Of a stretch of DNA of 64,000 nt, positions 41,887 through 61,173 are shown one piece after another (the first letter of the stretch is position 1; each line of letters starts with the position of its first letter). The notes below the pieces were generated by a model. The model did no database searches. It was not told the DNA's origin and worked only from the letters and a program-made list of their open reading frames with translations. Origin of the DNA: Bacteroidota bacterium (GTDB lineage Bacteria; Bacteroidota; Bacteroidia; 2-12-FULL-35-15); the NCBI GenBank assembly GCA_025963715.1, contig JAOQAG010000001.1:124001-188000 (forward strand), given 5' to 3'. The position numbers were made by a program, and so were the translations under genes.

Positions 41887-41990
41887 GAATCTCTTTTCCG
41901 GTTTTTTTGAATGAACTAAAAATACTAATTTTTGTTTAATAGGAGTACAATTCATTTAAAAATTCGGGCGGCAAAAACTACTATTATTCT

Positions 41991-41998
41991 TATCTTTG
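41991..41998 (+). promoter_or_regulatory. TAnnTTTG -7 element of the C45 hydrolase gene
   Basis: TATCTTTG lies 22 nt before the ATG at 42013 and inside the upstream open frame, supporting the later start. Confidence 0.6.
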
Positions 41999-42012
41999 CA
42001 CAACTTTATACG

Positions 42013-43722
42013 ATGATGAAATTTATTAAACGGTTACTGCGCTGGTTCTTCTACACTTTTTTTGCTGTAACGGATGTTGTATTCCTTTTCCTGCTGTGGT
42101 TTATCATCACCGTTACCATTGCTCCTCCTAAGATCGATCCTGCAGAAGCCGCTGTGGTAAGAGCCGACCGCCATAATCCCGCTCCCGATTTTTATACATT
42201 AAAAAACAGCTGGATCAAAAAAAGCGAAACCGGCCTGTGGGAAATGTACATTGAAGGCGATGGTTTTGAGCGTGGTGTAGTGGAAGGCAAGCTCAATAAA
42301 GAGCTGGCCGAAAAGCAGGAAATTGCTTTTGTGAGCCAGATCCGTAAGATGATCCCATCGGAAACGATGCTGAATTATTTGAAATTTTTTATCGGATTTT
42401 TTAACCGCCACATCGATCAGTACATTCCCGAAGAATATAAGGAAGAGATCTACGGCGAGTCGCTTTCCGCTTCCGATCAGTTTGATTTTATTGCCCCGAA
42501 ATATTACCGGATGCTGAATTACCATGCCGCGCATGATATCGGGCATGCTTTGCAGGATAAAAACATGACCGTGGGTTGTACCGCTTTTGGTGCCTGGGCC
42601 GATAAAACAGATGATCACACACTGATCATCGGGCGGAATTTTGATTTTTATGTGGGTGATGCATTTGCGGAAGACAAGCTGATCAATTTTGTGAAGCCGA
42701 AAGACGGTTATAAATTTATGATGGTTTCCTGGGCGGGTATGATCGGTGCGGTTTCCGGGATGAACGAAAAAGGGCTGACGGTTACGATCAATGCTTCCAA
42801 ATCTGAAATCCCCACTTCGGCGGCAACGCCTATCTCGCTTGTGGCGAGGGAAATACTGCAATATGCAAAAAATATTGAGGAAGCAATGGCGATCGCGAAA
42901 AAGCGAAAAACATTTGTGTCCGAATCGCTGTTAATTGGTTCTGCATTGGATAACCGCACGGCAACGATCGAAAAAACGCCTTCCAAAACAGAGCTGTTTG
43001 AATCACCGAATACCGATTATATTATTTGCGCCAATCACTACCAGGGAAAATCGTTTGCAAACGATCCGGTGAACCTTTCCAACATTGAAAAAAGCTCTTC
43101 CAATTACCGTTTTCAGCATTTAACGCAGCTGATCAATCAAACGCCAACCATTACCGTGGCGGATGCTGCAGCGATTTTGAGAAATCAAAAAGGAATGAAC
43201 AACACCAGCATCGGGATGGGAAATGAAAAAGCGCTGAACCAGCTCATTGCGCATCATTCCGTGATCTTTAAACCTGCAAAATTACAAGTGTGGGTTTCCA
43301 CCAATCCTTTTCAATTGGGTGAATATGTGTGTTATGATCTGAACAAGATCTTCGCGGAAGCGCCTGCATTGGATAAAAAAGTGGAATTGTATGAAAAACA
43401 GCTGGACATACCAGCCGATCCATTTTTATACTCGCAGGATTTTAAAAAATTCAATGCATGGAAACACATGCGCGAAGCGTTTCAATATGCACACAAACGT
43501 AAATTGAAATATGAGCTGAGTAAAAAACAGATCGATGATTTTATCAATTGCAATCCCGATTATTTCGAAACCTATTTTCTTTTAGGAAATTATTACAACG
43601 ACCAGGGAAACAAAGAAGAAGCGCTTCGTGATTTTAATTTAGCGCTTACAAAAGAAGTAACAACGGTGCAGGATAAAGAAGCGATTGAAAAAAGTATAAA
43701 GTCCTTAGAAGTTAGTCGTTAG
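42013..43722 (+). CDS. C45-family autoproteolytic acyltransferase/hydrolase-like membrane protein
   Basis: The ATG at 42013 gives 569 residues. A strong hydrophobic anchor (about 9-35) precedes a domain resembling C45 Ntn-hydrolases, the penicillin acyltransferase/acid ceramidase-like family. VGCTAFGAWADKT supplies the expected nucleophilic cysteine, revealed by self-cleavage in relatives. GRNFDFY, MVSWAGMIGAVSGMNEKGLTV and ICANHYQG follow as family blocks. The C-terminal about 60 residues look like a TPR (YFLLGNYYNDQGNKEEALRDFNLAL). The substrate is likely an amide- or acyl-linked lipid or peptide but is unknown. It is probably anchored facing the periplasm. Confidence 0.78.
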   Translation: MMKFIKRLLRWFFYTFFAVTDVVFLFLLWFIITVTIAPPKIDPAEAAVVRADRHNPAPDFYTLKNSWIKKSETGLWEMYIEGDGFERGVVEGKLNKELAEKQEIAFVSQIRKMIPSETMLNYLKFFIGFFNRHIDQYIPEEYKEEIYGESLSASDQFDFIAPKYYRMLNYHAAHDIGHALQDKNMTVGCTAFGAWADKTDDHTLIIGRNFDFYVGDAFAEDKLINFVKPKDGYKFMMVSWAGMIGAVSGMNEKGLTVTINASKSEIPTSAATPISLVAREILQYAKNIEEAMAIAKKRKTFVSESLLIGSALDNRTATIEKTPSKTELFESPNTDYIICANHYQGKSFANDPVNLSNIEKSSSNYRFQHLTQLINQTPTITVADAAAILRNQKGMNNTSIGMGNEKALNQLIAHHSVIFKPAKLQVWVSTNPFQLGEYVCYDLNKIFAEAPALDKKVELYEKQLDIPADPFLYSQDFKKFNAWKHMREAFQYAHKRKLKYELSKKQIDDFINCNPDYFETYFLLGNYYNDQGNKEEALRDFNLALTKEVTTVQDKEAIEKSIKSLEVSR

Positions 43723-43983: not shown

Positions 43984-44355
43984 ATGATTTTAGGAATTGG
44001 AACTGACATAGCAGAAGTACACCGCATCGCCAAAAGCATAACGAACATTAGCTTTATGGAAAAAGTATTTTCCAAAGCGGAGATCGCTTATTGCGAAACA
44101 AAAGCAAACAAAGCGGAAAGTTATACCGCTCGCTTTGCAGCGAAGGAAGCATTTTTCAAAGCATTGGGAACCGGCTGGCGCGGCGGAATGGCATTTAATG
44201 AAGTGGAAGTGTGGAATGATGAACTGGGAAAACCAACATTAAATATTTTAGGAACAACAGCCGAGCTGATCAAAGAAAAGAACATTCGTATCATTCATAT
44301 TTCATTATCGCATATTAAAGATGTGGCAATGGCGACGGTGGTGTTGGAAGATTAA
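43984..44355 (+). CDS. acpS: Holo-[acyl-carrier-protein] synthase
   Basis: The 123-residue protein is a standard AcpS. GIGTDIAEVHRI carries the metal-binding D8, RFAAKEAFFKALGTG carries E55, and the C-terminal HISLSHIKDVAMATVVLE closes the fold. It transfers 4'-phosphopantetheine from coenzyme A to a serine of acyl carrier protein, as a cytoplasmic homotrimer in the family. It is flanked by repeats on both sides and appears monocistronic. Confidence 0.93.
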   Translation: MILGIGTDIAEVHRIAKSITNISFMEKVFSKAEIAYCETKANKAESYTARFAAKEAFFKALGTGWRGGMAFNEVEVWNDELGKPTLNILGTTAELIKEKNIRIIHISLSHIKDVAMATVVLED

Positions 44356-44586
44356 AAACAAGTTTAAAGTTCAAAAGTTTAAAGTTTTGCTGTGTGTGAG
44401 GAAGTTCATTGGTTCAATAGTTCATTTGTTTAAATTATAGTTTTTGATAAATCATTAGAATATAAATAATAAAATAATTTCAATGCATGCAGGATGCATT
44501 CCCCTCTTGAGAGGGGCCAGGGGTGTGTAAAATACAGCATCCGCACACAGATTCGTAAATTCGTAAAAATTCGTTATCCGTACCTT
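44356..44586. repeat. Composite spacer with several repeat families
   Basis: No gene is seen. In order: GTTCAAAAGTTTAAAGTTTTGCTGTG words (44366-44396), GTTCATTGGTTCAATAG words (about 44403), a CCCCTCTTGAGAGGGG copy (44501-44516), and ACACAGATTCGTAAATTCG words just before the ligase start. Confidence 0.75.
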
Positions 44587-45873
44587 ATGTTGCCCGAAAT
44601 AGAAACCAAATCACTCGCAGAACAAAAAAAGTATCAGGAATCGCAATTACCGGGCTTGCTGGAATATGTGAACACGCATTCTAAATTTTATGCGGAGCTG
44701 TTTAAAACCAAGGGCATTGAGATCTCCGGCATCAAAACACTGGAAGACCTGCAGCGGATCCCGGTAACTACCAAAGACGATATTCAAAGCCGTAACACTG
44801 ATTTTATCTGCGTTCCGCAAAATAAGATCATTGATTACATTACTACTTCCGGTACATTGGGCGACCCGGTTACTTTTCCCTTAACGGATAAAGACCTGGA
44901 CCGTTTGGCCTACAACGAATACATTTCTTTTGTGTGTGCCGATGGTAGCAGCGATGATGTATTTCAGCTGATGACCACACTGGATCGCCGTTTTATGGCC
45001 GGACTAGCCTATTTTTTAGGCATCCGCAAATTGGGTGCAGGCGTGGTGCGGGTAGGAGCGGGCATTCCGGAATTACAATGGGATACTATCAAACGCATTA
45101 ATCCCACTGCTTTTGTAACGGTTCCATCCTTTTTATTAAAGCTGATCGAATACGCGGAAGCAAACGGAATTGATTATAAAAATACTTCCATTACCAAAGC
45201 CATTTGTATTGGTGAAGCCCTGCGCCACCAGGATTTTAGCCTGACAACACTCGGACAAAAGATCCAGGATAAATGGAATATTAAATTGTATTCCACTTAC
45301 GCATCCACCGAAATGAGCGCTGCATTCACGGAATGTTCGGAAGGAAAAGGCGGACATCATCATCCTGAATTAGTGATCGTGGAATTTTTGGATGAACATG
45401 ATCAACCTGTGAAAGAAGGCGAAGCGGGCGAAGTAACGATCACCACGCTTGGTTTGGAAGGCATGCCTTTGCTGCGTTTTAAAACGGGCGATCTGTGCAG
45501 TCATTATACCGAAGCCTGCAGCTGCGGCCGTAAAACCATTCGCCTTGGCCCGATCGTGGGACGGCGTAAACAAATGATCAAATACAAAGGCACTACGCTG
45601 TACCCGCCTGCATTGTACGATATTTTAAACAACATCGACGGCGTAAAAAATTATGTGGTGGAAGTTTTTACCAACGAGATCGGAACGGATGAGATCCTGA
45701 TCCGAATTGGCTGCGAAAGCATTCCGGAACATTTTGAAAAAGACATCAAAGATCACTTTCGTGCAAAATTAAGAGTAGCGCCGCAGGTGAAATTCGAAAA
45801 TGTGGACACTATCAATAAACTGCAATTCCCCGAACTAAGCCGCAAGCCCGTGGTGTTTTTTGACAAACGATAA
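44587..45873 (+). CDS. Phenylacetate--CoA ligase family (PaaK-like) AMP-forming enzyme
   Basis: The ATG at 44587 gives 428 residues; the frame upstream is repeat sequence. The phosphate-binding loop ITTSGTLGDPVTFPLT, ATP-site YSTYASTEMSAAFTEC and the late block LLRFKTGDLCSHY with CSCGRKTIRLGPIVGRRKQM match PaaK-family adenylating enzymes, which are shorter than other acyl-CoA ligases. The KGTTLYPPALYDIL segment starts the PaaK C-terminal domain. Members activate phenylacetate or other aryl acids to CoA thioesters. With paaZ 4 kb away, phenylacetate is possible, but coding for an anthranilate- or coenzyme-F390-type ligase cannot be excluded. Confidence 0.8.
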   Translation: MLPEIETKSLAEQKKYQESQLPGLLEYVNTHSKFYAELFKTKGIEISGIKTLEDLQRIPVTTKDDIQSRNTDFICVPQNKIIDYITTSGTLGDPVTFPLTDKDLDRLAYNEYISFVCADGSSDDVFQLMTTLDRRFMAGLAYFLGIRKLGAGVVRVGAGIPELQWDTIKRINPTAFVTVPSFLLKLIEYAEANGIDYKNTSITKAICIGEALRHQDFSLTTLGQKIQDKWNIKLYSTYASTEMSAAFTECSEGKGGHHHPELVIVEFLDEHDQPVKEGEAGEVTITTLGLEGMPLLRFKTGDLCSHYTEACSCGRKTIRLGPIVGRRKQMIKYKGTTLYPPALYDILNNIDGVKNYVVEVFTNEIGTDEILIRIGCESIPEHFEKDIKDHFRAKLRVAPQVKFENVDTINKLQFPELSRKPVVFFDKR

Positions 45874-45939: not shown

Positions 45940-47580
45940 ATGAAAAAAACGTTCTCCTTCTTTTGTTCGCTCTTATTTTTATTTACTGTACTTTCTTCAT
46001 CTGCACAAACTCTTACGGAAGGCCCTGCCGCTACTGTTGTAAAAGGAATTGGCTATCAACGATTGATCGGGAGCGACAACACCGGCTTTTATGTGATGAA
46101 ACGCAGCTCGGTTGGAAAAGGCGTTCACATCATTATCGAAAAATACAATAACGATAATTTTGCACAGCTTTTTTCTGTGGAAACGAAAGTCGCGGAAACG
46201 CAGGAAAGCATGAATTTTGCGGCGACAACACAAATTCAGACATTTTTAACGCCGGAGAAAGTAGTTGTGTTTTTTGAGTCGTATGACGCAAATGCCGAAA
46301 AGCTGATCTTCTTTGTACAAACGGTTTCTGTAACCGGCGAGCTGTCGCAGGTATATGAAGTATGTTCATCTCCCTTAAAAATTAAAAGCCCGATCCAGTT
46401 AATGCCGACCACATTTTTCAGGGTTTCTGTTTCTCCGGATGGAAAATCGTTTGCCGCGATCAATTTACTGGATCGTGAAAACGTACTGAAAATGGGAGGA
46501 AAGAACAATCTTTCTGTTTCTGAGGATCTAACCTGCGTTATTTATGATGTGGCTACTTTCCAGAAAGTTGCCGAACGCATTATTCCATCCCGCGACAAAG
46601 GCGTTTCACTTGAAACGGGTAATTACACGATCGATAATAATAGAAACGTATTCTTTTCAGCTATTTATGAAGGGAACAGAAGCAATGAGCTTTCGGGATT
46701 TGCAATCGGTCTGATCGAGAATGCTTCTCCAACGGCGAAAATGCTGCCGATCACAATTAAGGGAAATAAAATATTCCATGATTTTGCTTTTAAATCCTTA
46801 ACAAACGGCGACTTGCTGATCACCGGAATTGTTTCGGATACACTTCAAAAAGGCACTGATTCCAGCTATTTGCAGGCATCCTATTTTGTAAAGCGAATTG
46901 CTGCAAATACACTGGAAACAAAATACGAGGTGGTAAAAGACTTTAAATATGATGCAAAAGTGGCGCTTGGTAAATCCAGGAAATGGACCACATTTACAAA
47001 TACCGAAATTTTTGAAATGAACGATGAGATCTACATCAGTTCGGAACATACGGATATACTACCGAAATACAATCCCAATTCATTCGGATTGTTGAGCGAG
47101 CAAACGATCAACAAGGAAATTGTTGTGAGTAAAATTACAAAAGCGGGTGATATTGCATGGACAAAAGTAATCCCTAAACTGCATGTAGGTTGTAGCTTGC
47201 TGACCGGACAACCAAAACCACCACGTTATTCCGGCAATTACAAAGTATTTATTGCTGGCGATAAATTAAATTTTGTATTTCTTGATAGTCCGGATAACAA
47301 AGACCTGACACCTGAAAATTTTGATGCAGCCATTGTAAAACCTATTCATGGAAACATGTTTGGATCAGAATCCATTGTTGCGAAAGATAAAGCGGGTGCT
47401 GTTTGTGTAAGTGTCGACAGTAACGGCAATAGTAAAAAAACGGTGTTCCTTGAAAATGTGGAAGACGCTGTAAATTATGTTGCGTTGGGAAATACGGTAA
47501 TGATCGCGCCTAAAAAATTATTGCTTTTCCTTGAAAACAGGAAATCAAAAATTGAGCAATTCGGAACGTTGAATTTTTAA
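45940..47580 (+). CDS. Secreted beta-rich protein of unknown function, long paralogue 1
   Basis: I do not recognise this 546-residue protein. A signal peptide (FFCSLLFLFTVLSSSAQ) is followed by repeated beta-rich segments without catalytic motifs, plausibly a propeller. It is paralogous to 47795-49345: both have GxxxIIIEKY/HHLFIEKYD-type segments, a V(K)FSPD or VSVSPDGKSF segment, and YTIDNNRNVFFSAI versus FTIDNKHNLYFLLK. It starts the five-gene same-strand secreted cluster that ends at 52913. No sorting domain for type IX secretion is seen, so a periplasmic place is likely. Confidence 0.75.
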   Translation: MKKTFSFFCSLLFLFTVLSSSAQTLTEGPAATVVKGIGYQRLIGSDNTGFYVMKRSSVGKGVHIIIEKYNNDNFAQLFSVETKVAETQESMNFAATTQIQTFLTPEKVVVFFESYDANAEKLIFFVQTVSVTGELSQVYEVCSSPLKIKSPIQLMPTTFFRVSVSPDGKSFAAINLLDRENVLKMGGKNNLSVSEDLTCVIYDVATFQKVAERIIPSRDKGVSLETGNYTIDNNRNVFFSAIYEGNRSNELSGFAIGLIENASPTAKMLPITIKGNKIFHDFAFKSLTNGDLLITGIVSDTLQKGTDSSYLQASYFVKRIAANTLETKYEVVKDFKYDAKVALGKSRKWTTFTNTEIFEMNDEIYISSEHTDILPKYNPNSFGLLSEQTINKEIVVSKITKAGDIAWTKVIPKLHVGCSLLTGQPKPPRYSGNYKVFIAGDKLNFVFLDSPDNKDLTPENFDAAIVKPIHGNMFGSESIVAKDKAGAVCVSVDSNGNSKKTVFLENVEDAVNYVALGNTVMIAPKKLLLFLENRKSKIEQFGTLNF

Positions 47581-47631
47581 GGTTATGTTGTAGAACAATG
47601 TTACTATGGAAACAGAAACACTCTTCAGAAT

Positions 47632-47661
47632 TGTCATCCCGCACCTGTTGCGGGATGACAG
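47632..47661. repeat. GTCATCCCG palindromic repeat, copy 5
   Basis: TTGTCATCCCGCA and TGCGGGATGACAG enclose CCTGT. It lies in the 214-bp gap between the two long paralogues. Confidence 0.88.
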
Positions 47662-47794
47662 GATTATTCGGGAATATGATAAAAAAATAACATTTTCTTA
47701 CAACAGCATTTTTAACAGATCTGTTTCACTATAGTGATGAATTGCCGCACATAAAAAAATAATAAAATAATTTTCAAACCACTAATCATCCTTT

Positions 47795-49345
47795 ATGAAT
47801 TACTCCAAAATCATTGCATTGATTGCATTCGGTACTTTATTGTCTTTTAATTCCATTGCGCAGGAAAAACCATTTGCGGAAAGTGCGGTAATTTCCACCA
47901 CAGATACTCCATACGGCGTTTTTGCAGAAGATGCATCTTCCTTGTATTCCTCCCGGATGAGCGGGCTGGGAACAGAGCATCATTTATTTATTGAAAAATA
48001 CGACAAGGGCACATTTAAAACAACCTATTCTAAGGAATTACCCAAATACAGCGAATTTCAGAAATTAACGAGAAGAGCAAGTTTCGACCTGCATTGCTTT
48101 TTAGTAAAAGATAAAGTATACTGCTTTTACCAGTATTTCGATAATAAAAAGGATACGATGTATGTTTTGCTGCAAACGATCGCAGCCAACGGGGATGTGT
48201 CGGATGTTTATAATGTTGCCGCTACCAGCACACGTAATGCATTTCTTGGTAGTATTGTTAAATTTTCACCGGATCTGGAAAGCTTTTTTGTAGTGGCTAA
48301 TCCTGAAAGTCCTTTCATTAGTTTTGACCCAAATGCAAAGCAGGTTGTGAATTTGCAGGGACGGCTTTATAAAACGGCAACGCTTGAAAAGATCTGGGAA
48401 CACGATATTTCTTCTGCAATAAATGGCAGGAGCTATGATGTTACCGGTTTTACGATCGACAATAAACATAACCTCTATTTTCTGTTAAAAGAAAACAACC
48501 GCACTGCTGTTTTATCGGTGATCGGGCCCAATTCACCAACGCTCAAACAATTGCCGGAGCTGGTTTCCAAAGACCTGAGAACGGAAGGCGTTTCTTTACA
48601 AATCACGCAGGGCGGCGATATCCTGTTTGCAGGTGTATCTGCTGATATCATGAAAGATGCAAGAGGTTTTTACCGTGATCCCGGCTTATTTTTAAGGGTG
48701 CTTAATCCTGATAACCTGGAAGTGAAGCTTACAAAAGATTATCCTTTTAGTGATGATGTAATGAATAAATTATCGATCGGGCGATGTGAGAAAAAACCGA
48801 ATGCAGATCAGAGAAAGGCGAATATGGAAATATATAACCTGTTCTCTTTTTTCCAGGTGCTGGAATCGGATGACGGATATTATTTTACAACAGAAGATAA
48901 TTTTTGGGCCTTGTTCGACGGCGCGATCTTCAGTAAGGATTTTATTGTCATTAAAACGCTTAAAAACGGCGATTTAAAATACCAGGCTGTGATTCCGCAT
49001 AATGACAGAAATGGGTATATGATCGGGATCAACACCTACATTATCAATCAAAAATATTATATTTTATTTGGCGAGGCAACAGAGCTGGCGGATAAAAAAT
49101 TAGATGAATACGAATCGCTTACAATGCCTGTGATCCCGGGCGGTTACGGAAACGTGGTAATGGTGAGTGCCGGTGATAATGGTGCATTGACAAAAAAAGT
49201 AATGTTTCCCAATGTAAAGCACGAGCTCGCATACGATTGCCCGTACAGCCCGGTTGCCAGCATTTACGATAATAACAAACTCTTATTTGTTTTAGCAAAT
49301 ACCAAAGCCAACGTAATAAAATATGCTTCTTACAAAATTGACTAA
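47795..49345 (+). CDS. Secreted beta-rich protein of unknown function, long paralogue 2
   Basis: This 516-residue protein has a signal peptide (MNYSKIIALIAFGTLLSFNS to IAQ) and the same layout as the preceding paralogue, including FIEKYDKGTFK, KFSPDLESFFVV, FTIDNKHNLYF and a C-terminal VMVSAGDNGALTKKVMFPN. Its end overlaps the M48 protease start by 23 bp, so the two genes are almost certainly co-translated or co-transcribed. That tight link suggests that the protein and the protease work together, for example as partner or substrate adaptor, an inference. No known domain is named. Confidence 0.77.
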   Translation: MNYSKIIALIAFGTLLSFNSIAQEKPFAESAVISTTDTPYGVFAEDASSLYSSRMSGLGTEHHLFIEKYDKGTFKTTYSKELPKYSEFQKLTRRASFDLHCFLVKDKVYCFYQYFDNKKDTMYVLLQTIAANGDVSDVYNVAATSTRNAFLGSIVKFSPDLESFFVVANPESPFISFDPNAKQVVNLQGRLYKTATLEKIWEHDISSAINGRSYDVTGFTIDNKHNLYFLLKENNRTAVLSVIGPNSPTLKQLPELVSKDLRTEGVSLQITQGGDILFAGVSADIMKDARGFYRDPGLFLRVLNPDNLEVKLTKDYPFSDDVMNKLSIGRCEKKPNADQRKANMEIYNLFSFFQVLESDDGYYFTTEDNFWALFDGAIFSKDFIVIKTLKNGDLKYQAVIPHNDRNGYMIGINTYIINQKYYILFGEATELADKKLDEYESLTMPVIPGGYGNVVMVSAGDNGALTKKVMFPNVKHELAYDCPYSPVASIYDNNKLLFVLANTKANVIKYASYKID

Positions 49346-51506
49346 GCCGTACTCCCGGCAATTGTCGGGCTGCAACTGTTTTTTTACAGTGTGTGTATTT
49401 TTGATGGCCACGGCTGTTGGGTTTTCACAATCGCCCTCATTGGATAAGGATTATTCGCCGCTTAAATCCACAGGCAGCATTCCTGAGAATTTTACATTGA
49501 GCACGAAGAAAAAAATTGATGTGGATGTAAAACAGATCAAAGCACCGGGATATAAGGAAAACAAGCTGCAGCAGGATTATGCGGTGCGCACCAATTACGA
49601 GATTGATAAGCAGCTGCACGGCGGCAACATCTTATTGAATGAAGAGCTGAGCACTTATGTGAACAATGTGGTGGACAAACTGTTGAAAAGCGATCCGGAG
49701 CTACGTTCCAAACTAAAAATATACGTTACCAAAGTTCCCGAAATGAACGCGTATTGCATGGGAAAAGGTTATTTATTTGTAAATGCAGGCTTGCTCGCAA
49801 AGATGGAGAATGAGGCGCAACTGGCGTATGTGCTGGCGCACGAGATCTCCCACTTTGTAAAAATGCACAATTTTAATACTTACGCCGAATTTAAAAAAAT
49901 TGATAAGGATTATAAAAAGCAAACATTCGAAGACCGCCAGATCCAGAAATTTACGTTCTCAAAAGAAAATGAATCCGAAGCGGATACTTACGGATTTGAG
50001 CTGTTTAAAAAATCGGATTACAGCCCGGCAGAAGCGCTTGCATCCTTTGATGCGCTGAAACATTATGACCTGCCTTTTGAAAATATTCCCTTTGATACCA
50101 CTTTTTTTAATGACAGTAATTTTAAGATCCCTTCCGTTTATTTTCTTACAAAATTGCAGCCTGTAAATGAAGATGAAGCCGTTGATGATTCGAAAAGCAC
50201 GCATCCGAATATACAACGGCGGAAAGAAAATATTGCAGCGCTGCTGGAAGGTTACCTGCAGAATGATGCAGCAGGGCAACAGGGAAAGAAAAAATTCCTG
50301 GTGTCGGAAAACGAATTTTTTAAAGCGCGGGATGTCGCGCGTTTTGAAGAATGCCGCCTGTTCCTGATCGAACGCAGCTATTTGTATTCGATCTTTTCCG
50401 CTTATATTTTATTGAAAAAATATCCGGAGAATGTGTACCTGCAAAAAGTGATCAGTAAATCATTATTTGCCATGGCGCTTTACAAGGATGGCGATCTGAA
50501 ATATAATGACGATTCGTATCGCCAGGGACCGATCCCTGATTTTACAAAAACAGAAGGCTATTCACAGCAGTTAAATTTTATGCTCGACCGGCTTCCGCAG
50601 AAAGAAATGGTAATTATGTCGTTGAAATATGTTTGGAAAAATCATCAGAAAAATCCGGATGATCCTTCTTTCCTGGCGATCAGCGATAGCTTGTTAAAGA
50701 TCCTCACAAAAAAATTTAACTCCGGCATTTCTGAATATTCCGATAAAGCGCCCGCAGCTGATGATGCAGCTAAGCCAACGGAATATTATAAATACGCTTT
50801 TGTGGATTATTTGCAGAACGATGCCGGATTTAAAAAAACATTCACGGAATATTCAGCAGGCATGTCGGCCACTCCTGCTATTGCATTGAAAGCTTTTACG
50901 ATCCCTAAAAAAGGAGAGAAAAAAGAAAATAAAGATGCAGCCGATAAAAAAACAGCGCTGAGTTTGGGGATCTCTAAAATAATTATTGTGGATCCTTTTT
51001 ACATCCGTTACGACGAAAGCCTTTCGGAAACATCCACGTATGAAGCTACCGACCGGCGGCAGGATAACCTGGTAACATCGCTGAAAGATAATGCACGCAT
51101 TAGTAAAATTGCAATTGAAATGATCGATCCCGGAAGTTTTACAAGTGATAAGATAGCGCTGTATAATGATTTTTCGGTGTTCAATGATTGGTTCAACGAG
51201 CGCATGGAAGGAGGCGAAATGCAAAGCTGCCCGGTTTTTAACTCCGAGGAGATCCCGGAGCTGATCAAAAAATACGGAACAAAATACATTTTGTGGCCGG
51301 GCGTATTCAGTGTGCGTCAAAAAATAAAAGGATCGTTGCGCTACGAGGACGATACATTTTATTATTCCGTTCTGTTCGATCTCGAAACCGGGAAGATCGT
51401 TTCTAAAAAAATGATCCATTCCACGCAAAATGATTATCCTGAACGTATCAATGATTATGTGGATGATACGTTTGATGAGATCCGTAAATTAAACCTTACT
51501 TATTGA
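49323..51506 (+). CDS. M48-family zinc metalloprotease with unknown C-terminal domain
   Basis: The 727-residue protein has a signal peptide or anchor (about 18-36, NCFFTVCVFLMATAVGFSQ). The M48 domain has the zinc motif H173-E-I-S-H177 (LAHEISHF) and the third ligand E217 in ENESEADTYGF. Its length far exceeds simple M48 lipoproteins such as LoiP/BepA. The region after about 330 is helical, and the last about 170 residues form a separate domain (IIIVDPFYIRYDESLS to NDYPERINDYVDDTF) that I cannot name. M48 proteases clear or mature outer-membrane and periplasmic proteins. It overlaps the upstream paralogue gene by 23 bp and runs into the next gene's promoter. Confidence 0.87.
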   Translation: MLLTKLTKPYSRQLSGCNCFFTVCVFLMATAVGFSQSPSLDKDYSPLKSTGSIPENFTLSTKKKIDVDVKQIKAPGYKENKLQQDYAVRTNYEIDKQLHGGNILLNEELSTYVNNVVDKLLKSDPELRSKLKIYVTKVPEMNAYCMGKGYLFVNAGLLAKMENEAQLAYVLAHEISHFVKMHNFNTYAEFKKIDKDYKKQTFEDRQIQKFTFSKENESEADTYGFELFKKSDYSPAEALASFDALKHYDLPFENIPFDTTFFNDSNFKIPSVYFLTKLQPVNEDEAVDDSKSTHPNIQRRKENIAALLEGYLQNDAAGQQGKKKFLVSENEFFKARDVARFEECRLFLIERSYLYSIFSAYILLKKYPENVYLQKVISKSLFAMALYKDGDLKYNDDSYRQGPIPDFTKTEGYSQQLNFMLDRLPQKEMVIMSLKYVWKNHQKNPDDPSFLAISDSLLKILTKKFNSGISEYSDKAPAADDAAKPTEYYKYAFVDYLQNDAGFKKTFTEYSAGMSATPAIALKAFTIPKKGEKKENKDAADKKTALSLGISKIIIVDPFYIRYDESLSETSTYEATDRRQDNLVTSLKDNARISKIAIEMIDPGSFTSDKIALYNDFSVFNDWFNERMEGGEMQSCPVFNSEEIPELIKKYGTKYILWPGVFSVRQKIKGSLRYEDDTFYYSVLFDLETGKIVSKKMIHSTQNDYPERINDYVDDTFDEIRKLNLTY

Positions 51507-51507
51507 T

Positions 51508-51515
51508 TATATTTG
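51508..51515 (+). promoter_or_regulatory. TAnnTTTG -7 element of short paralogue 1
   Basis: TATATTTG begins just after the M48 stop and lies 37 nt before the ATG at 51545. It sits inside the longer frame open from 51503, supporting the later start. Confidence 0.5.
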
Positions 51516-51544
51516 TAGAGCATAAATCATTTAACAATAAAAAC

Positions 51545-52144
51545 ATGAAAAAAACGATCCTTCTTTTGTTCGTCTGCGCACTTGGTAAAACACTGGCAGC
51601 ACAAACCATTTACCAGGAAAGCGGCGATATGAAAATGCTGGCAGGAGAGAAAAAAATGTCGGTGCAGTATGATTTCAGTTCCTTTAACATGGGAGATGAT
51701 ACCCTGGAAGCGGCCTATTTAAAATCCCGCCGCGACGACCTGAATGCAAAAGGCGCGGGCAGGGGCGATAATTTTGTAGAGCGCTGGAACAATAACAAAA
51801 CGGCGCATTGGGAAGTAAAATTTGAAGATCTGTTTAATAAATACAGCAAGATGCAGGTGCAGCAAAATGCAACTGATGCAAAATATACCATGATCATAAA
51901 AGTTACCACGGTTTTCCCCGGTTTGCTCAATGTTGGGGTTATGGGTGGTGCAAGCACGTATATTTCATGCAATGTGCTCATCGTGGAAACGGGGCACCCC
52001 GACAAGATCCTTTCCAATACATTGATGAAGCACGTGATGGGCGCACAATGCGGCATGTTGCCGGATGACCCGGGATTGTGCGTACAGGAAGCATTCGCAC
52101 GATTAGGCAAGGACCTGGTGGCTTATATGAAAAAAAGCATGTAG
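51545..52144 (+). CDS. Small secreted protein of unknown function, short paralogue 1
   Basis: The ATG at 51545 gives 199 residues with signal peptide MKKTILLLFVCALGKTLAAQ. The body is mixed alpha/beta, and near its start has the motif LAGEKKMSVQYDFSSF that returns in the next gene as LAGEKKVNIEYVYDGM. Both continue with GRGDNFVERWNNNKTA or GKGDRWAQKWVNSRTA. A late strand-rich region (TMIIKVTTVFPGLL) and a final helix FARLGKDLVAYMKK follow. I do not recognise the family. It follows the M48 protease by 38 nt. Confidence 0.77.
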   Translation: MKKTILLLFVCALGKTLAAQTIYQESGDMKMLAGEKKMSVQYDFSSFNMGDDTLEAAYLKSRRDDLNAKGAGRGDNFVERWNNNKTAHWEVKFEDLFNKYSKMQVQQNATDAKYTMIIKVTTVFPGLLNVGVMGGASTYISCNVLIVETGHPDKILSNTLMKHVMGAQCGMLPDDPGLCVQEAFARLGKDLVAYMKKSM

Positions 52145-52225
52145 ACCATGTACTTAAAATGGAGTATTTTTTCGGAAATTCTTACTAAATTGGTTGATTA
52201 ACGGGCGGCCATTCTTAAAAATGGA

Positions 52226-52233
52226 TATATTTG
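52226..52233 (+). promoter_or_regulatory. TAnnTTTG -7 element of short paralogue 2
   Basis: TATATTTG lies 64 nt before the ATG at 52290, the same octamer as before short paralogue 1. Confidence 0.5.
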
Positions 52234-52289
52234 CTTTATCGAACAAACACATTAAGCACAATTTATAAACTTAAACACCAAAAATTTAC

Positions 52290-52913
52290 ATGAAAACAAC
52301 CAAATTAGCAGTAGCACTGAGCTTTATGCTTGTTGCAGGCCTTGCAGCCAAAGCACAAAAATTTACTGAAGGTGATGCAAAATTAAGCTTTTTAGCAGGC
52401 GAGAAAAAAGTAAACATTGAGTATGTGTACGACGGAATGACAGTAGGAAAAAAAGCAGAAGCAGATTATAAAGCAGAAAAAATTGATACTTACAACAAAA
52501 AAGAGCCGGGTAAAGGCGATCGTTGGGCACAAAAATGGGTAAACAGCCGTACTGCGGTGTATGAGCCAATGTTTGAAGAGCTGATCAACAAAATGCTTAC
52601 AAAAGCAAAAACAAATGCTTTGGCTTCCAAAGACCTGAAAGATGCAAAATACAAAATCGTAGTGAAACTGGTAATGTTAGAGCCGGGCTTTAACTCTTAC
52701 GTGATGAAAGTAAATCCTTATTGCGATTTTGAAGTATCATGGGTAGAACAGGCAACCGGAAAAGTAATGGCAAAAGCATTTTTGAACAATGTTCAGGGTG
52801 TTGTTATGGCTGATAACGATTGGGATTTCGATCCATCTAACCGGATCAAAGAATGTTTTGCAAAAGCCGGTAAAATGATCGGTGCAAAAATGGGAAAAGC
52901 AATGAGCAAATAA
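52290..52913 (+). CDS. Small secreted protein of unknown function, short paralogue 2
   Basis: The 207-residue protein has signal peptide MKTTKLAVALSFMLVAGLAA ending at KAQ. It is clearly homologous to the preceding gene (LAGEKKV, RWAQKWVNSRTAVYEP versus RWNNNKTAHWEV, and KIVVKLVMLEPGF versus TMIIKVTTVFPGL). It is lysine-rich and carries no catalytic motif. Its own promoter element and a strong terminator (52934-52967) close the cluster. The function is unknown; duplication beside the protease suggests envelope proteins of one pathway. Confidence 0.78.
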   Translation: MKTTKLAVALSFMLVAGLAAKAQKFTEGDAKLSFLAGEKKVNIEYVYDGMTVGKKAEADYKAEKIDTYNKKEPGKGDRWAQKWVNSRTAVYEPMFEELINKMLTKAKTNALASKDLKDAKYKIVVKLVMLEPGFNSYVMKVNPYCDFEVSWVEQATGKVMAKAFLNNVQGVVMADNDWDFDPSNRIKECFAKAGKMIGAKMGKAMSK

Positions 52914-53161: not shown

Positions 53162-54115
53162 CTATTTCTTCATCCATTCCTCCACCTGTGTCTGATCCAG
53201 CGTCATATAATCCACATCGTGCTCCACTATACTGTTGTTGATCAGCAGGATCGTAGGCATGGCCGTTCCCGCGAGGTAAACAAACGGCCGTCCTTTCAGC
53301 ATGCAATGCGGAATAGTTTCGGTATGCGTATCATCAAAGAACGGCTGCAGGTTTTCCTCTTTACCGTTCAGTACAAAATAAAAGGAAATGCCCGGGTTGC
53401 GCTCATGCATGATGCGCATTTTTTTTGATGCAATGCGGCAATGCGGACAGGTTAAGCTCATAAATGCAATGATGTGTTTGCCCTGCGAAAGCGTTTTTGG
53501 CGGAGCATTAAGAGTGGCATGCGCGTACAGCGAATCCAATTCCAACTTATAATTGTCTTCCGGCTTGTTCAGGTAAGATGCCGAATAATCCAGCTCCACA
53601 GGGTTGCAGATGAAGGGCAGCGCTAAACAAGTACCAAGCGTCAGCCAGAATAAAATGGTTGCGAATGTATTGTTCCAGCCTTCGTGGTATTTATACAGCA
53701 CAATAAAAATGAAGAGCATGATCAGATTTTTTACCAGGGCCCAGAACGGCGTCATGGTAAATACCGTACCGAAACAGCCGCAATTTCCTTTGTTGCCCGA
53801 AAAAGCCATCAGGAGGATCAGGTAAATGCTGAAAATGGTAAGCAATGCGATCCCTAATTTGTAAGTTACCTTTTTTAATTTGATGTGAAAAATGAGCATA
53901 AAGCCGATAAAAAATTCAAAGCCGATCAGCAGACGTGCTATGAACGGCGCCAGTTTCCAGTTGCTCAACCCCAGGTCAACAAATGTAAATTCAAACGGCT
54001 CGATGGGAGAGCTGTAATGCTGCAGAAAAGGAAAACCGCCTTTTGTAAAACCGGAAACGATAAAAACCATACCCAGCAAGATGGTAAGGATTGTAAAAAG
54101 AATCTTTTTTGTCAT
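53162..54115 (-). CDS. MauE/DoxX-type membrane protein fused to a thioredoxin-like domain
   Basis: The 317-residue protein has four or five transmembrane helices in its first about 185 residues, including the MauE/DoxX-like first helix ILFTILTILLGMVFIVSG. A cysteine motif NCGCFG (about 111-116) is followed by TPFWALVKNLIM. A C-terminal thioredoxin-like domain (about 205-317) has the redox pair SLTCPHCR and the cis-Pro strand GTAMPTILLI. The fusion suggests electron transfer across the membrane to a periplasmic CxxC, as in quinone-linked thiol systems (inference). The gene is alone, convergent with the secreted cluster. Confidence 0.8.
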   Translation of the reverse strand: MTKKILFTILTILLGMVFIVSGFTKGGFPFLQHYSSPIEPFEFTFVDLGLSNWKLAPFIARLLIGFEFFIGFMLIFHIKLKKVTYKLGIALLTIFSIYLILLMAFSGNKGNCGCFGTVFTMTPFWALVKNLIMLFIFIVLYKYHEGWNNTFATILFWLTLGTCLALPFICNPVELDYSASYLNKPEDNYKLELDSLYAHATLNAPPKTLSQGKHIIAFMSLTCPHCRIASKKMRIMHERNPGISFYFVLNGKEENLQPFFDDTHTETIPHCMLKGRPFVYLAGTAMPTILLINNSIVEHDVDYMTLDQTQVEEWMKK

Positions 54116-54648: not shown

Positions 54649-56229
54649 TTAAACTTTAAACTTATTTACCCGGCTCAGCAAATTGCGTTTCAATATCACT
54701 ACCGACGTGATCACCCCGGAAAAAAGCGCGGATCCAACACCCACACAAACAATATCCTGCCCGGTAAGGTATAAATTCCGGTAGGATGTGCTTGCCCGCA
54801 ATTGCTTTAATTGAAAACGTTCGGCACTGTGCTCCAATCCGTAGATCTCGCCATGAGCGTAGTTACTGAAATGTTTAGTGGAAAGCGGTGTGGACAATTC
54901 GCAAAGCTCCACATGTCCCCTGATCTGCGGTACAGTGCTGTATAACTTTTCCAGCAGGCGGTTCTGCGTTTCTTCTTTGTACACATCGTATTCATCGCCG
55001 CGTTTCTGCCATTTTTTATCTTCCCATTCTTTTACCCATTCGTACGGACAGGATGCGATCACCTGGATGGTGCTGCTATTGGGATGTGTAGCGCTCCAAC
55101 CCGGGTCTTTGGCCGATGGAAATGAAATATACGCCATGGAAGGAATGTAATTTTTATCAGCCATGTGCACTGCATAATCCGCATCCAGGTTGTAGCTGTT
55201 GTAGAGCCAGATGTTGTGTTTCGGGAGTTTTAATTCGGCATCGCTTGCATTCAGCCCCACGTACAAACACACATGCGATACCGAAGGTTTCAGATCATTC
55301 ATCTGGCAGGTACTTTCGCTTTTTGCATGCTTGATGAGTTTGTTGTACGTATTGTGAATGCCGGTATTACTCACAATTTTGGAAGCCGTGATCAGGTCGC
55401 CGTTTTCCATTTCAACGCCAATTGCTTTATTTTTTTTGAAAGTAATATTTTTTACATCCGCCTTAATGGCGATGATGCCGCCGTTTTTTTCGATCACATC
55501 GATCAGGCTTTTCGAAATACTGGAAGCACCGCCAACAGGGTAATTGCCGCCATCCAAAAAATGATCGGTAACTATGGCGTGGATCGCGAAACTGCTTTTT
55601 TTCGGTGGCAATCCGTAATTTCCACATTGTGCACACAGCACGGTAATTAATTTTTCATTCGCGGTAAGCTTCCGGATCACATCATACGTGGTGCATTGCG
55701 AGTATTTATAAAAGCCGCGGCGTAAAAAATAACCAAGGCTTTTACTCAGCCAGTCGGGCATGGTGCGCTCCGCAAAAAACATCAGCGACAAGCCGCCCAC
55801 TTTTGAAATTAATTTATAATAATCGCGGATAGCTTGTTCTTCCTCCGGAAAATAAGCGATCATCTGCTCCAGCTGTTCTGTTCTTCCGGCTTTAAAATTA
55901 TACACATCTCCTTCTATGATCGTCTGATCGTAGATCTCACCCATACCGGCCCATTTTAGTTTGGAATCGGTTACATAATCAAAAACCTTGCGCAGCAGCC
56001 CGTCTTCCAGGTTTACCTGGCCAACGTAATGCACGCCCACATCCCATTCAAATTTTTTACGTTTGAAGGTATGGCTGAAACCGCCTGCTACATAATGCTT
56101 TTCGAGCACCAGTACTTTTTTGCCTGCTTTTGAAAGTAAGGCTGCCGTGGTTAAGCCGCCAATGCCGGAACCAACAATAATAACATCGTAATGCTGTTTT
56201 GATAACCTGGTGGAGTAGAGGTTTTTCAT
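54649..56229 (-). CDS. FAD-dependent retinol-saturase/carotenoid-isomerase-like oxidoreductase
   Basis: The ATG at 56229 gives 526 residues; the upstream TTG is less likely. The dinucleotide motif VIIVGSGIGGLTTAALLSKAG (about 17-37) is followed by LEKHYVAGGFSHTFKRKKFE and FEWDVGVHYVG, placing it with all-trans-retinol 13,14-reductase and CrtISO-type members of the phytoene desaturase superfamily. The C-terminal YLTGQDIVCVGVGSALFSGV is the second FAD-contact block. Such enzymes saturate, desaturate or isomerise polyene chains; the substrate is unknown. It lies inside a pair of inverted composite repeats and 539 bp after the other redox genes on the same strand. Confidence 0.83.
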   Translation of the reverse strand: MKNLYSTRLSKQHYDVIIVGSGIGGLTTAALLSKAGKKVLVLEKHYVAGGFSHTFKRKKFEWDVGVHYVGQVNLEDGLLRKVFDYVTDSKLKWAGMGEIYDQTIIEGDVYNFKAGRTEQLEQMIAYFPEEEQAIRDYYKLISKVGGLSLMFFAERTMPDWLSKSLGYFLRRGFYKYSQCTTYDVIRKLTANEKLITVLCAQCGNYGLPPKKSSFAIHAIVTDHFLDGGNYPVGGASSISKSLIDVIEKNGGIIAIKADVKNITFKKNKAIGVEMENGDLITASKIVSNTGIHNTYNKLIKHAKSESTCQMNDLKPSVSHVCLYVGLNASDAELKLPKHNIWLYNSYNLDADYAVHMADKNYIPSMAYISFPSAKDPGWSATHPNSSTIQVIASCPYEWVKEWEDKKWQKRGDEYDVYKEETQNRLLEKLYSTVPQIRGHVELCELSTPLSTKHFSNYAHGEIYGLEHSAERFQLKQLRASTSYRNLYLTGQDIVCVGVGSALFSGVITSVVILKRNLLSRVNKFKV

Positions 56230-56521
56230 GTACAGCAAGGTAAACTAATTCAGTAACGCAGCCCGTTTATTTAGCAGCGAAATGAAATTTTGTATGAATT
56301 CATAAAGGGAGTTCAAAGTTTAAAGTTCAAAAGTTTAAAGTTTGCTGGATGTGCTCCTTCGGAGCGGCTTTTACCACTCCATAGGAGTCCTACGGAAAGG
56401 CGCAAAGACGGGAAGAAATTAAAAAGGAATTTTATTTCTGTAAACACTGTTAACGCAATAGAATATGCACGTTTATTTTAAAAGATAGGAAGAGAACAGT
56501 AAAGTAAAAAAAATATTTTTT
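56230..56521. repeat. Inner composite repeat before the oxidoreductase gene
   Basis: No gene is seen. GAGTTCAAAGTTTAAAGTTC, GTGCTCCTTCGGAGCGGC and GGCGCAAAGACGGG words are in forward orientation (about 56309-56420), mirroring the words left of the gene. The remainder is AT-rich. Confidence 0.7.
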
Positions 56522-56765
56522 TGGAAAACAAGAAGTCAAAAACTTGTGAGCAAACAAATTTAAAAGCACAAGCAAAATAAAAACCTTTGCGCCTTAGTGC
56601 CTTTGTGGTAAAAAAACAGCTCCGAAGGAGCCACCCAGCAAAAACTCTTTTTCTTCTTTTCCTTCTTAGTGCTTTCTTAGTGTCTAAGTGGTAAAAACCG
56701 CTCCGAAGGAGCACATACAGCAAATACACAGCAAAATTAAACTTTCCAACTTTAAACTTTGAACT
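56522..56765. repeat. Right arm of the 245-bp inverted repeat
   Basis: Reverse complement of 54153-54400. It begins TGGAAAACAAGAAGTCAAAA, contains CGCTCCGAAGGAGC (CCGCTCCGAAGGAGCAC) and ends AACTTTAAACTTTGAACT just before the next gene's stop. Confidence 0.88.
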
Positions 56766-56768
56766 TAT

Positions 56769-58304
56769 TTACTTCGTTTGCGGGATCACTTTAAATTTCA
56801 CTTTATAATCCTTACAGATCTTCTTTGCTACATCACGCCCGGTTTTAATGGCAATAGGCAAACCGCCTCCGGGTTGGTTCCAGTGGCTCGAGTAATAAAA
56901 GTTTTTTAATCCCGGTAAATGAAACCCAACGGGCGAGCGCGCCAACAGGTTTTTCCCCGGCAGCCAGCCTTGTGTGCTGCCTTTCCAGTTGTTGGTATAA
57001 CGTTGGAAAGTGGCAGGTGTAGCCACATCAATTACTTCAATGTGATCTTTTATTCCGCCCAGTGTAATGTCCAGGCGTTCAATTATTTTATTGGTGAATT
57101 CGGTTTTGGCAGCGCGGTATTTCGGGCGGTCGTTCTTGCGTGCATCAATCCAGAATTCGCGCTGCGTGGTATAAAAGCTCACGGTAACCGAAGTTTTTCC
57201 TTTCGGTGCCAGTGTGTGATCGTAATTGTAAATGTGCACTTCAAAACGCGAGTAGGCAGTTCCGTCAGGCGAGATAATATCTTCCTCCAGCGGCACTCTG
57301 AAAAAATGCGGCAGCTCAGTCAGATCTTTTGAGATCCCAAACGAAAATTGCATCACGGAATAAAATACTTCCAGTTTTTTTAATTCTTTCAGCTCGATCA
57401 TTTCCTGATCCACAAATTTTCCGTCCAGTGCATCAAACACCGTAAAGTTCCAGTCGGCAGCGGAAATGGTAAGATCCGAAAAATGTGTGGCATCATTCCG
57501 CACTAATAATCCTTTTGCAATGCCATCCTCCGTAATTATTTTTTTTACCGGTGTTTTGTAATGCATCGTTCCGCCCAGCGATAAATACGTTTGCTCTATT
57601 TTTTTTGCAAAATTCATGGAACCACCGATCGGGTAACCGGCGCTTTTTTTATCAAAAACCGACAATGGCATGGAAAGCACCATCATGTTCACCTCATCAC
57701 CGTCGTACAGCAATTCAAAGCTTTCACGGATAAACGGATTGCTGAATTTGCGGGCGTAGGTATAATTTGTGTAATTTTTTATTTTCAGGAACCAGTATAC
57801 AAACTCAAGGTAGCGCGTCATTTTAATTCCGCGAACCATCGATTGAAAAAACGGGAGATCGTCCATGATCGGCGGCAGATCATACTTCTGCATGATGCGC
57901 ATCGGCTTGATGAATTCGCGGATGGCTTTGGTATCCTCCGGCGCCAGGTCGATCATGTATTCTTCCAGGCGGGTAAGGTTGGTATACAGCTTGAAATTTT
58001 TTTCGCCGTATTTATTTGCGTGAGTTTTGGTTCCCACCTCCACGCGGATCTCGTGATTATGAAATTCAATTTTTTTCATGTCCAGGATCTCCGACCAGAT
58101 CTTGTAAAAGGAAGAACCCGTATCCGATCCCAATATCCAATGTGCGCAGCTGTCAAAGGTATATTCGCCTTTTTCCCAGCTGGTACAAAGCCCGCCGGGG
58201 ATCGAATGTTTTTCGAAAATGTGGGTTTCAAACCCGTTCATCTGCAAATAACACCCGGCTGTTAAGCCCGAAACTCCCCCACCTATGATATTAATTTTCA
58301 TCAT
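56769..58304 (-). CDS. Phytoene-dehydrogenase-like FAD oxidoreductase
   Basis: The 511-residue protein starts with the FAD-binding fold KINIIGGGVSGLTAGCYLQ and the following GGLCTSWEKGEYTFDSCAHW. The end has GFHLPGLKNFYYSSHWNQPG and GLPIAIKTGRDVAKKIC, the second FAD-binding block of CrtI-like enzymes. No transmembrane helix is evident. It is most similar in build to uncharacterised phytoene-dehydrogenase-like proteins, so the substrate is open. The gene is 9 nt after the small secreted-protein gene and probably belongs to a three-gene operon starting at 59991. Confidence 0.83.
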   Translation of the reverse strand: MMKINIIGGGVSGLTAGCYLQMNGFETHIFEKHSIPGGLCTSWEKGEYTFDSCAHWILGSDTGSSFYKIWSEILDMKKIEFHNHEIRVEVGTKTHANKYGEKNFKLYTNLTRLEEYMIDLAPEDTKAIREFIKPMRIMQKYDLPPIMDDLPFFQSMVRGIKMTRYLEFVYWFLKIKNYTNYTYARKFSNPFIRESFELLYDGDEVNMMVLSMPLSVFDKKSAGYPIGGSMNFAKKIEQTYLSLGGTMHYKTPVKKIITEDGIAKGLLVRNDATHFSDLTISAADWNFTVFDALDGKFVDQEMIELKELKKLEVFYSVMQFSFGISKDLTELPHFFRVPLEEDIISPDGTAYSRFEVHIYNYDHTLAPKGKTSVTVSFYTTQREFWIDARKNDRPKYRAAKTEFTNKIIERLDITLGGIKDHIEVIDVATPATFQRYTNNWKGSTQGWLPGKNLLARSPVGFHLPGLKNFYYSSHWNQPGGGLPIAIKTGRDVAKKICKDYKVKFKVIPQTK

Positions 58305-58313
58305 TCCTTTTTC

Positions 58314-58715
58314 TTAAACAAAAGATAAATCTTGTTTTTTGGTGACTGCCTCTTTTGTTTCCGGAAAACGTTGTGCATACTTTTTCCAATCGTTGTTCAA
58401 CTTTAATTCCTTGTCCTTATATTTTATATAAATGTATTTTGGGTTATGCCTTTTCGTTTCTCTCCTCTGTTTTGCTGCGGATATGCCACTCGGACAAGCA
58501 GTTGCCCATGCAACTTCAATTTCAAATTGTCCGGCGCTGTCGGTTGTTACAATTTGTGTTTTTCCACCGGTAGTTACGCTTAGCTCGCAGTTTTTCAGCA
58601 GCGTTTTATTTATGCCGTATGCTGTGCCTTTTACAAAATAGCTCCCTGCGCGGCCTTTTGCAAAAAGTCCGGTTACCGAAAAAATAAAAAATAAAAGAGC
58701 AAGCGTTCGTTTCAT
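58314..58715 (-). CDS. Small secreted protein, possibly beta-sandwich
   Basis: The 133-residue protein has signal peptide MKRTLALLFFIFSVTGLFAK. The body (SYFVKGTAYGINKTLLKNCE to VTTDSAGQFEIEVAW) resembles a carboxypeptidase-regulatory-like beta sandwich, then turns lysine-rich (KYIYIKYKDKELKLNNDWKK). It is not recognised beyond that. It lies 7 nt after one FAD oxidoreductase gene and 9 nt before another, so it is firmly in the redox operon, and an exported product beside cytoplasmic enzymes is unusual. Confidence 0.75.
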   Translation of the reverse strand: MKRTLALLFFIFSVTGLFAKGRAGSYFVKGTAYGINKTLLKNCELSVTTGGKTQIVTTDSAGQFEIEVAWATACPSGISAAKQRRETKRHNPKYIYIKYKDKELKLNNDWKKYAQRFPETKEAVTKKQDLSFV

Positions 58716-58722
58716 CTGGTTT

Positions 58723-60066: not shown

Positions 60067-60156
60067 GCTAAAATTCCCCTATCTTTTTCTAAAGAATGCC
60101 TGTTTTAGTAAGGAAATAATGATTTTGGAGGAGAAGAATTGCTGTTTATATTTTAC

Positions 60157-60164
60157 TAAATTTG
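60157..60164 (+). promoter_or_regulatory. TAnnTTTG -7 element of the ABC transporter gene
   Basis: TAAATTTG lies 15 nt before the ATG at 60179 and inside a longer open frame from 60119, so the later start is favoured. Confidence 0.55.
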
Positions 60165-60178
60165 TCGCCCCGGTAATT

Positions 60179-60928
60179 ATGAGCTCAAACACAATAATAG
60201 AAGTAAACCATCTTTCAAAAATATACCGCGGCGCCACAACGCCGGTGGTAAACGATGTTTCATTTGCAGTGGAGCGTAACGAGATCTTTGGCTTGCTTGG
60301 CCCCAACGGTGCCGGTAAAACCACTACTATTTCTATTTTATGCGGCTTGTTCCCGCCTACATCCGGCAAGGTAATGATCGATGGGATGAACCTGAACGGC
60401 GATTTGGCAGACATCAAACAAATTGTGGGCGTGGTGCCGCAGGACATTGCGTTGTATCCTACACTTACGGCAAGGGAAAACCTGAATTTTTACGGCAGCA
60501 TGTACGGTTTATCCGGAAAAGTGCTGAAAGATAAAATTGAATTGTGGCTGACCAATTTCGGCTTGACCGATGCCGCAAACAGGCGCGTATCCACTTATTC
60601 GGGCGGAATGAAACGCCGCGTGAATTTAATTGCGGGTATTCTGCATGATCCCAAAATTTTATTTTTGGATGAACCCACAGTTGGTGTGGATGTGCAATCC
60701 CGGAACGTGATCATCGGGCATTTGAAGCAATTAAATGCAGCCGGAACTACTATTATTTACACCTCGCACCACATGGAGGAAGCGGAATATTTTTGCTCGC
60801 GTGTGGCCATCATCGATTACGGAAAAATGGTAACAAAAGGATCGCCGCAGGAATTGATTATGCAGAATGGTGCTGCTAATCTGGAGGAAGTGTTTTTGAA
60901 TTTAACGAATCGGAAATTAAGGGATTAA
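60179..60928 (+). CDS. ABC transporter ATP-binding protein
   Basis: The 249-residue ATPase has Walker A GPNGAGKTT (41-49), Q-loop Q88, signature YSGGMKRR (140-147) and Walker B ILFLDE (160-165), with DEPTVGVD. It belongs to the type that pairs with ABC-2 permeases for drug, lipid or polysaccharide export. The ABC-2 permease gene follows after 245 bp of repeats on the same strand, and the FAD operon is divergent, sharing the promoter region. A joint role in exporting the product of those redox enzymes is inference. Confidence 0.9.
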   Translation: MSSNTIIEVNHLSKIYRGATTPVVNDVSFAVERNEIFGLLGPNGAGKTTTISILCGLFPPTSGKVMIDGMNLNGDLADIKQIVGVVPQDIALYPTLTARENLNFYGSMYGLSGKVLKDKIELWLTNFGLTDAANRRVSTYSGGMKRRVNLIAGILHDPKILFLDEPTVGVDVQSRNVIIGHLKQLNAAGTTIIYTSHHMEEAEYFCSRVAIIDYGKMVTKGSPQELIMQNGAANLEEVFLNLTNRKLRD

Positions 60929-61173
60929 AATTAAGGAATGAAAAAATTAAGGATTAAGGATTAAGGAATAAGGAATTGGGATTTAGGATTATACTGTGTG
61001 GAAAAAAATTATGAAAACTAAATTTTAATATATTCTATAACACACTACGCATAATCCTAAATCCTTAATAAAGAAATCCTAAATAATTACAATACCTAAC
61101 GATTTAGCACGCTACGCATAATCCTGAATCCTTAATAAAAAAATCCTAAATAATTACATCGTAAATTAATACA
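60929..61173. repeat. Spacer with a 50-bp direct repeat
   Basis: No gene is seen. A direct repeat at 61042-61091 and 61109-61158, period 67 bp (TACGCATAATCCTAAATCCT start), follows words in reverse orientation (AAGGATTAAGGATTAAGG, about 60945). So the segment is also an inverted repeat. Confidence 0.8.

Follow-up and report, generated by a model that had tools for sequence, protein, structure and literature searches.

What is the role of a run of five genes, all encoding exported proteins and one of them a metalloprotease, in the envelope of a Bacteroidota bacterium? The genes lie in a stretch of DNA of 64,000 nucleotides (‘the window’), and a preliminary description suggested that they form a single system in which a protease is served by two matched types of partner. 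We find that the five genes lie within a flexirubin gene cluster, set between flexirubin genes, a setting that was overlooked in the first reading. We favor, at roughly even odds (a probability of about 0.5), the reading that this is an accessory envelope block which serves to place flexirubin in the outer membrane, rather than a protease system in its own right.

Five exported genes in a flexirubin neighbourhood

The five open reading frames were all found on the plus strand as first described, and each product starts with what looks, by eye, like a signal peptide. Long 1 (45940..47580; 546 aa) is a beta-rich protein for which there is no Pfam or NCBIfam model. Long 2 (47795..49345; 516 aa) is its paralogue (22% identity, E = 2e-29) and overlaps by 23 bases (49323–49345) the gene directly downstream, which encodes the M48 metalloprotease (49323..51506; 727 aa). 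That protein comprises a catalytic domain (residues ∼110–250; Pfam Peptidase_M48, 5e-18), a helical middle region, and a C-terminal domain (residues ∼548–727); outside the catalytic domain, neither Pfam nor NCBIfam has a name for any part of it. Small 1 (51545..52144; 199 aa) and small 2 (52290..52913; 207 aa), the last two genes, are likewise paralogues (30% identity, E = 2e-24; E = 2e-21 in a whole-genome search). Two starts are possible for small 1 (TTG at 51503 or ATG at 51545), and we chose the ATG because it opens the signal peptide.

Inspection of the flanking DNA revealed that long 1 begins 66 bases after the end of flxY (44494..45873, plus strand), the flexirubin acyl-CoA ligase gene, whose product scores 725 bits against the equivalog model NF053551 (curated cut-off 520). 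It is preceded on the same strand by a C45-type acyltransferase/hydrolase gene (41932..43722; NF040521, 217 bits, cut-off 85), of a kind found near flxY in flexirubin clusters, and by a probable holo-ACP synthase (phosphopantetheinyl transferase) gene that was recognized by eye from its sequence (43984..44355). The C45 gene adjoins FlxY in genomes G223, G360, G402, G169 and others, and the position of the holo-ACP synthase-like gene between the two is conserved. On the far side, convergent with the block, lies a gene for a MauE/thioredoxin-like membrane protein (53162..54115, minus strand; PF07291, 5e-20), followed by further minus-strand genes on the flexirubin side (54649..59991) that encode two FAD oxidoreductases of the CrtI/carotenoid isomerase type, a 133-aa protein and a flavin-dependent halogenase-like protein, and then by an ABC ATPase and permease pair (60119..62460, plus strand). 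Farther upstream of this neighbourhood, the window also contains genes for a protein with a type IX secretion sorting domain (36046–38205; Por_Secre_tail, 1e-13) and for a PaaZ bifunctional enzyme (38465–40684).

The first FAD oxidoreductase gene and the halogenase-like gene have homologues within the flxA–flxY clusters of G223 and G360, and a pair homologous to the ABC genes is found inside such clusters elsewhere. G360 contains, in one run, a small gene, a halogenase-like gene, FlxA (887 bits), FlxB, DarB, the ABC pair, an FAD gene, a C45 gene and FlxY. The locus thus resembles the flexirubin clusters of Chitinophaga pinensis and Flavobacterium johnsoniae (flxA–flxY, darAB) in having FlxY beside the block and flanking genes with homologues in complete flxA–flxY clusters of other genomes; the neighbourhood in the window is recognized by FlxY and those flanking homologues, while FlxA, FlxB and DarB were confirmed in G360. 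Because the homologues of the flanking genes belong to complete flexirubin clusters, we conclude that the block sits inside a flexirubin neighbourhood. The five genes first described are real, but their boundaries excise them from a larger gene neighbourhood.

Within the same genus, an M48 gene stands beside flexirubin genes in approximately 16 loci, most of them with the order C45–AcpS–FlxY–[small/long]–M48. The neighbourhood is in this sense kept in related genomes, but its composition is not: individual loci contain 0–2 long, 0–2 small, 1–2 M48 and 0–4 ‘barrel-like’ genes (described below), and the window's set of two long genes, two small genes and one M48 gene had no second case among the loci examined. 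That every non-protease gene is duplicated, as correctly reported for this genome, is peculiar to it, and since the set is unrepeated and the counts vary, the pairing logic that had been built on it is unsupported. In G035 only a small gene follows FlxY, with neither M48 nor long gene, and G034 has a small plus a long gene. The small-family gene directly after flxY in G034 (contig C1, 41235–41693) is broken by four in-frame stops, as judged from a profile match, and two open copies lie ∼16 kb from it. In family f41, two genes, one for M48 and one for an exported protein of 268 aa, separate a 402-aa gene from the small gene in the flexirubin locus of G177, and the congener G206 is without both (L250:1–19901 versus L251:1–12000), an apparent insertion or loss.

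The small family and its link to flexirubin

A profile built on 14 members detected the small family in 47 of 390 genomes, and FlxY was present in 66 of 385. The two coincide to a striking extent: flxY was found in 44 of the 47 small-family carriers versus 22 of 338 non-carriers (Fisher 1e-37), and with the window's own genus removed the figures were 37 of 40 versus 18 of 330 (1e-33). Both genes are limited to a subset of Bacteroidota families, and their association might accordingly reflect shared ancestry only, each being common in the same lineages. Their co-segregation within families makes this very improbable. The small gene and flxY each occur in four of the 14 genomes of family f28 (the identical four), with corresponding counts of three and three of 11 in f20, four and four of seven in f41, and two and two of 12 in f37. 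When labels were shuffled within families, the joint count was 27.8 on average and 37 at most in 20,000 trials, compared with the observed 44; the trials drew on the 154 genomes with a listed family label, and many genomes that have neither gene are not among them. By this test, the small family and flxY are found together more often than shared ancestry accounts for.

Small genes lie within or adjoining the flexirubin cluster in several genomes of other families (G360, where the gene is beside FlxA, FlxB and DarB, as well as G223, G098, G254, G169, G251, G367, G177 and G206). In the majority of carriers, by contrast, the small gene is on a different contig or more than 100 kb from flxY, and physical linkage therefore does not explain the association. 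The M48 family serves as a control for bias of the method, since in the same genomes outside the genus it is unlinked to FlxY (19 of 96 versus 36 of 274, p = 0.13). Only three genomes have a small gene without FlxY; two of these are incomplete (76% and 89%), and the third, G043, is 99% complete. In the other direction, 22 of the 66 flxY-positive genomes have no detectable small gene, and the family is therefore either not indispensable for the pathway or replaced by something else. We are confident of a tie between the small family and flexirubin.

Neither Pfam nor NCBIfam holds a model for the small family (single members have weak matches to unrelated families), and a profile search of the PDB returned only an unrelated chain at E = 7. 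An AlphaFold2 model of small 2, built from three sequences (pLDDT 73, pTM 0.70), was compared with known structures using Foldseek and VIA-align, and matched PqiC (Z 9.7), PelC (9.5), TraT (9.3), FlgT (8.5), CsgG (8.3) and LptE (8.2); the superposition on PqiC (3.3 Å over 130 residues) spans most of the domain in this three-sequence model. Small 2 is thereby predicted to share the fold of the PqiC/PelC/LptE/CsgG group (∼130 residues, Z 8–9.7), a statement about fold that implies no ligand. It differs from that group in its low identity (∼10%) and in having no sequence-profile match to it, and we do not claim membership by sequence; moreover, none of the 32 small-family sequences viewed has a lipobox cysteine where the signal peptide ends. 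The members of the fold group that were matched are envelope proteins, several of which act in the export of lipid, polysaccharide or protein.

How flexirubins, like other aryl polyenes, are brought to the outer membrane is an unsolved question. Flexirubin resides in the outer membrane, and the genes for its export are at the stage of proposals: for C. pinensis, those for a LolA, an exporter, a glycosyltransferase and an acyltransferase (PMC3992019), and for the F. johnsoniae locus, LolA2 and LolB2 as pigment carriers (PMC11885536). No protein like the small family is named in the passages of the flexirubin papers that were consulted, and the supplementary gene tables may list one as hypothetical. 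The aryl polyene genes of E. coli include an analogous proposed transport set, apeL (LolA-like), apeN (LolB-like), apeM and apeA (PMC8253772). Those genes resemble the block in that dedicated envelope proteins are encoded within the cluster for a pigment destined for the outer membrane, whereas the protein families differ from those of the block.

Since the small family is nearly confined to bacteria with flexirubin genes, its members are candidates for carrying out the missing steps in pigment transport to the outer membrane. After secretion they would be periplasmic, with no lipid anchor, and they may help flexirubin, as a lipid-like outer-membrane pigment, across the periplasm or into the outer membrane, acting beside the LolA/LolB-like proteins of the cluster that are known from other species. 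That the small proteins handle the pigment itself is, in our estimate, slightly short of an even chance. They might instead bind or stabilize a flexirubin enzyme or an envelope protein of the cluster, which we consider unlikely; the same co-occurrence with flxY would be expected, and some proteins of the fold group, such as the LptE of the LptDE entries among the structural matches, function by binding a protein partner, while the present evidence fits a lipid ligand and a protein partner alike. Found together with the pathway, predicted to have a fold known from the export of lipid, polysaccharide and protein at the outer membrane, and absent from the model databases, the family offers a concrete candidate for deletion.

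The M48 protease and its usual neighbour

The M48 protein contains the motifs HEISH (residues 173–177) and ENESEAD (215–221), which are conserved across 48 aligned sequences; H173, E174, H177 and E217 correspond to an HExxH motif with a third-ligand glutamate, and D221 is conserved as well. BepA, an E. coli M48 protein of outer-membrane assembly, is similar in having an exported M48 domain with the same HExxH and third-ligand arrangement and a helical region after it. It differs in that the window's protein scores 54.7 bits versus an equivalog cut-off of 570 (the likeness of function is thus an analogy), in that the latter has an extra C-terminal domain, and in that the relatives of the latter are paired with a barrel-like gene.

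Relatives of this type of M48 protein are present in 105 of 395 genomes of the class. Among the 62 nearly full-length M48 genes in the neighbourhoods that we fetched, 44, from many Bacteroidota families, are followed on the same strand by a gene for a protein with a ‘GYxGKR’ motif, and the M48 stop often overlaps the start of that next gene by a few bases. The encoded proteins, mostly 220–310 aa, start with ‘..Q.PGYxGKR’ after the signal peptide and end with an aromatic or hydrophobic strand, features from which we infer a barrel-like protein. Scans of Pfam and NCBIfam and a profile search of the PDB gave no real match for this family, single members having only weak matches to OMP families in Pfam. 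The immediate succession of M48 and barrel-like genes in many genera of Bacteroidota offers a testable pair, of protease and client or of protease and partner. Adjacent to M48, the barrel-like gene is absent from the window, from G005 and from a second G005 locus, all three of which have a long gene directly upstream of M48; elsewhere in the window's genome, only a weak partial match was found (E = 9e-6).

These observations bear on the original proposal, a self-contained M48 protease system with the long and small paralogues as adaptors, substrates or inhibitors. The adjacency of the genes on one strand, the overlap of long 2 with M48, and the retention of long directly before M48 in the window and both G005 loci are all in its favor. 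It is at odds with the free variation of copy numbers among relatives, with the rarity of long and M48 as neighbours outside the genus, and with the habitual partner of the M48 family being the barrel-like protein, which is missing from the block. Furthermore, 27 of the 47 genomes with small genes are without M48, 85 genomes with M48 are without a small gene, and the small family goes with flxY (44 of 47) rather than with M48 (20 of 47). An envelope role for the block stays plausible, but a self-contained protease system is unsupported and, in our judgement, quite improbable; we give equally little credence to the narrower idea of M48 acting on the small or the long proteins.

A different possibility is that M48, a BepA-like protease for quality control at the outer membrane whose dedicated partner is a barrel protein, landed by chance in the flexirubin cluster, beside unrelated exported genes, and that the barrel gene was lost in the window, leaving M48 with changed clients or as a relic. 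The frequent barrel-like gene directly downstream of M48 elsewhere, the lack of a link between M48 and FlxY outside the genus, and the occurrence of M48 and the 268-aa gene in G177 and of neither in its congener all point this way. So does the M48 tree, in which the flexirubin-locus state changed at least twice; the window and G005 proteins are sisters (100/92), separate from the genus's other flexirubin-locus M48 proteins. Against pure accident, M48 is kept beside flexirubin genes in the ∼16 same-genus loci, and the barrel nature of the partner is read from sequence. We would bet against this explanation, while allowing it a real share of the probability. As a flexirubin-specific gene, M48 was itself considered and is ruled out outside the genus, where G177 is the sole exception.

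If the block instead serves to place flexirubin in the outer membrane, as we favor, M48 may have been recruited here to the pigment cluster, where by analogy with BepA it would clear or mature envelope proteins at the outer membrane; docking could be the task of its helical middle region and C-terminal domain. An AlphaFold2 model of whole M48, made with one relative, has a mean pLDDT of 37 (at most ∼70 in the C-terminal domain); in this low-confidence model the C-terminal domain matched HpaA (Z 9.3), FlgT (8.7), CsgG (8.0) and TolB-N (7.8), a hint that it may resemble the fold class of the small family. Profile–profile comparison of the two gave no sequence relation, and we therefore do not claim a common origin. 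A bolder combination, which we regard as speculative and rather unlikely to hold in full, is that the small family is an unrecognized, dedicated, non-lipidated periplasmic carrier or receptor for flexirubin with an LptE/PqiC-type fold, and also that M48 and the barrel-like protein form a Bacteroidota-wide two-gene unit of outer-membrane assembly or quality control that was drawn into pigment clusters.

The long family and variants of the M48 locus

The long family is widespread (219 of 390 class genomes), with five copies in the window's genome, and Pfam and NCBIfam scans and a PDB profile search gave no real match for it. In most loci of the same genus, the gene immediately before M48 is a long gene. 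Outside the genus, long genes were found within a few kb of flxY or a small gene in seven genomes (G404, G401, G225, G251, G156, G088 and G383), compared with a rough expectation of 1–2.6; this excess is no more than suggestive, since its p value varies with the copy number assumed (1e-4 to 0.02) and the cases were picked after looking. The long proteins would be exported accessory proteins to which we assign no role, and a propeller-like structure for them is a guess.

The loci of M48 relatives vary in several respects. The pattern of M48 followed by a barrel-like gene is exemplified by L071:8447–11433 (within L071–L127), and in some loci the barrel-like gene stands in a tandem array of two to four copies. 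In family f2 (L092:7002–8582, L103:7525–9129 and L126:11118–12737), a gene for a multi-pass membrane protein of ∼530 aa follows M48 in place of the barrel-like gene. In several M48 relatives (L102:11084–11689, L107:11593–12210 and L097:11262–11912), the C-terminal domain carries a hydrophobic, hairpin-like insertion (for example, FYLLYALIPPAIPFAVYYLARP) that the window's protein does not share.
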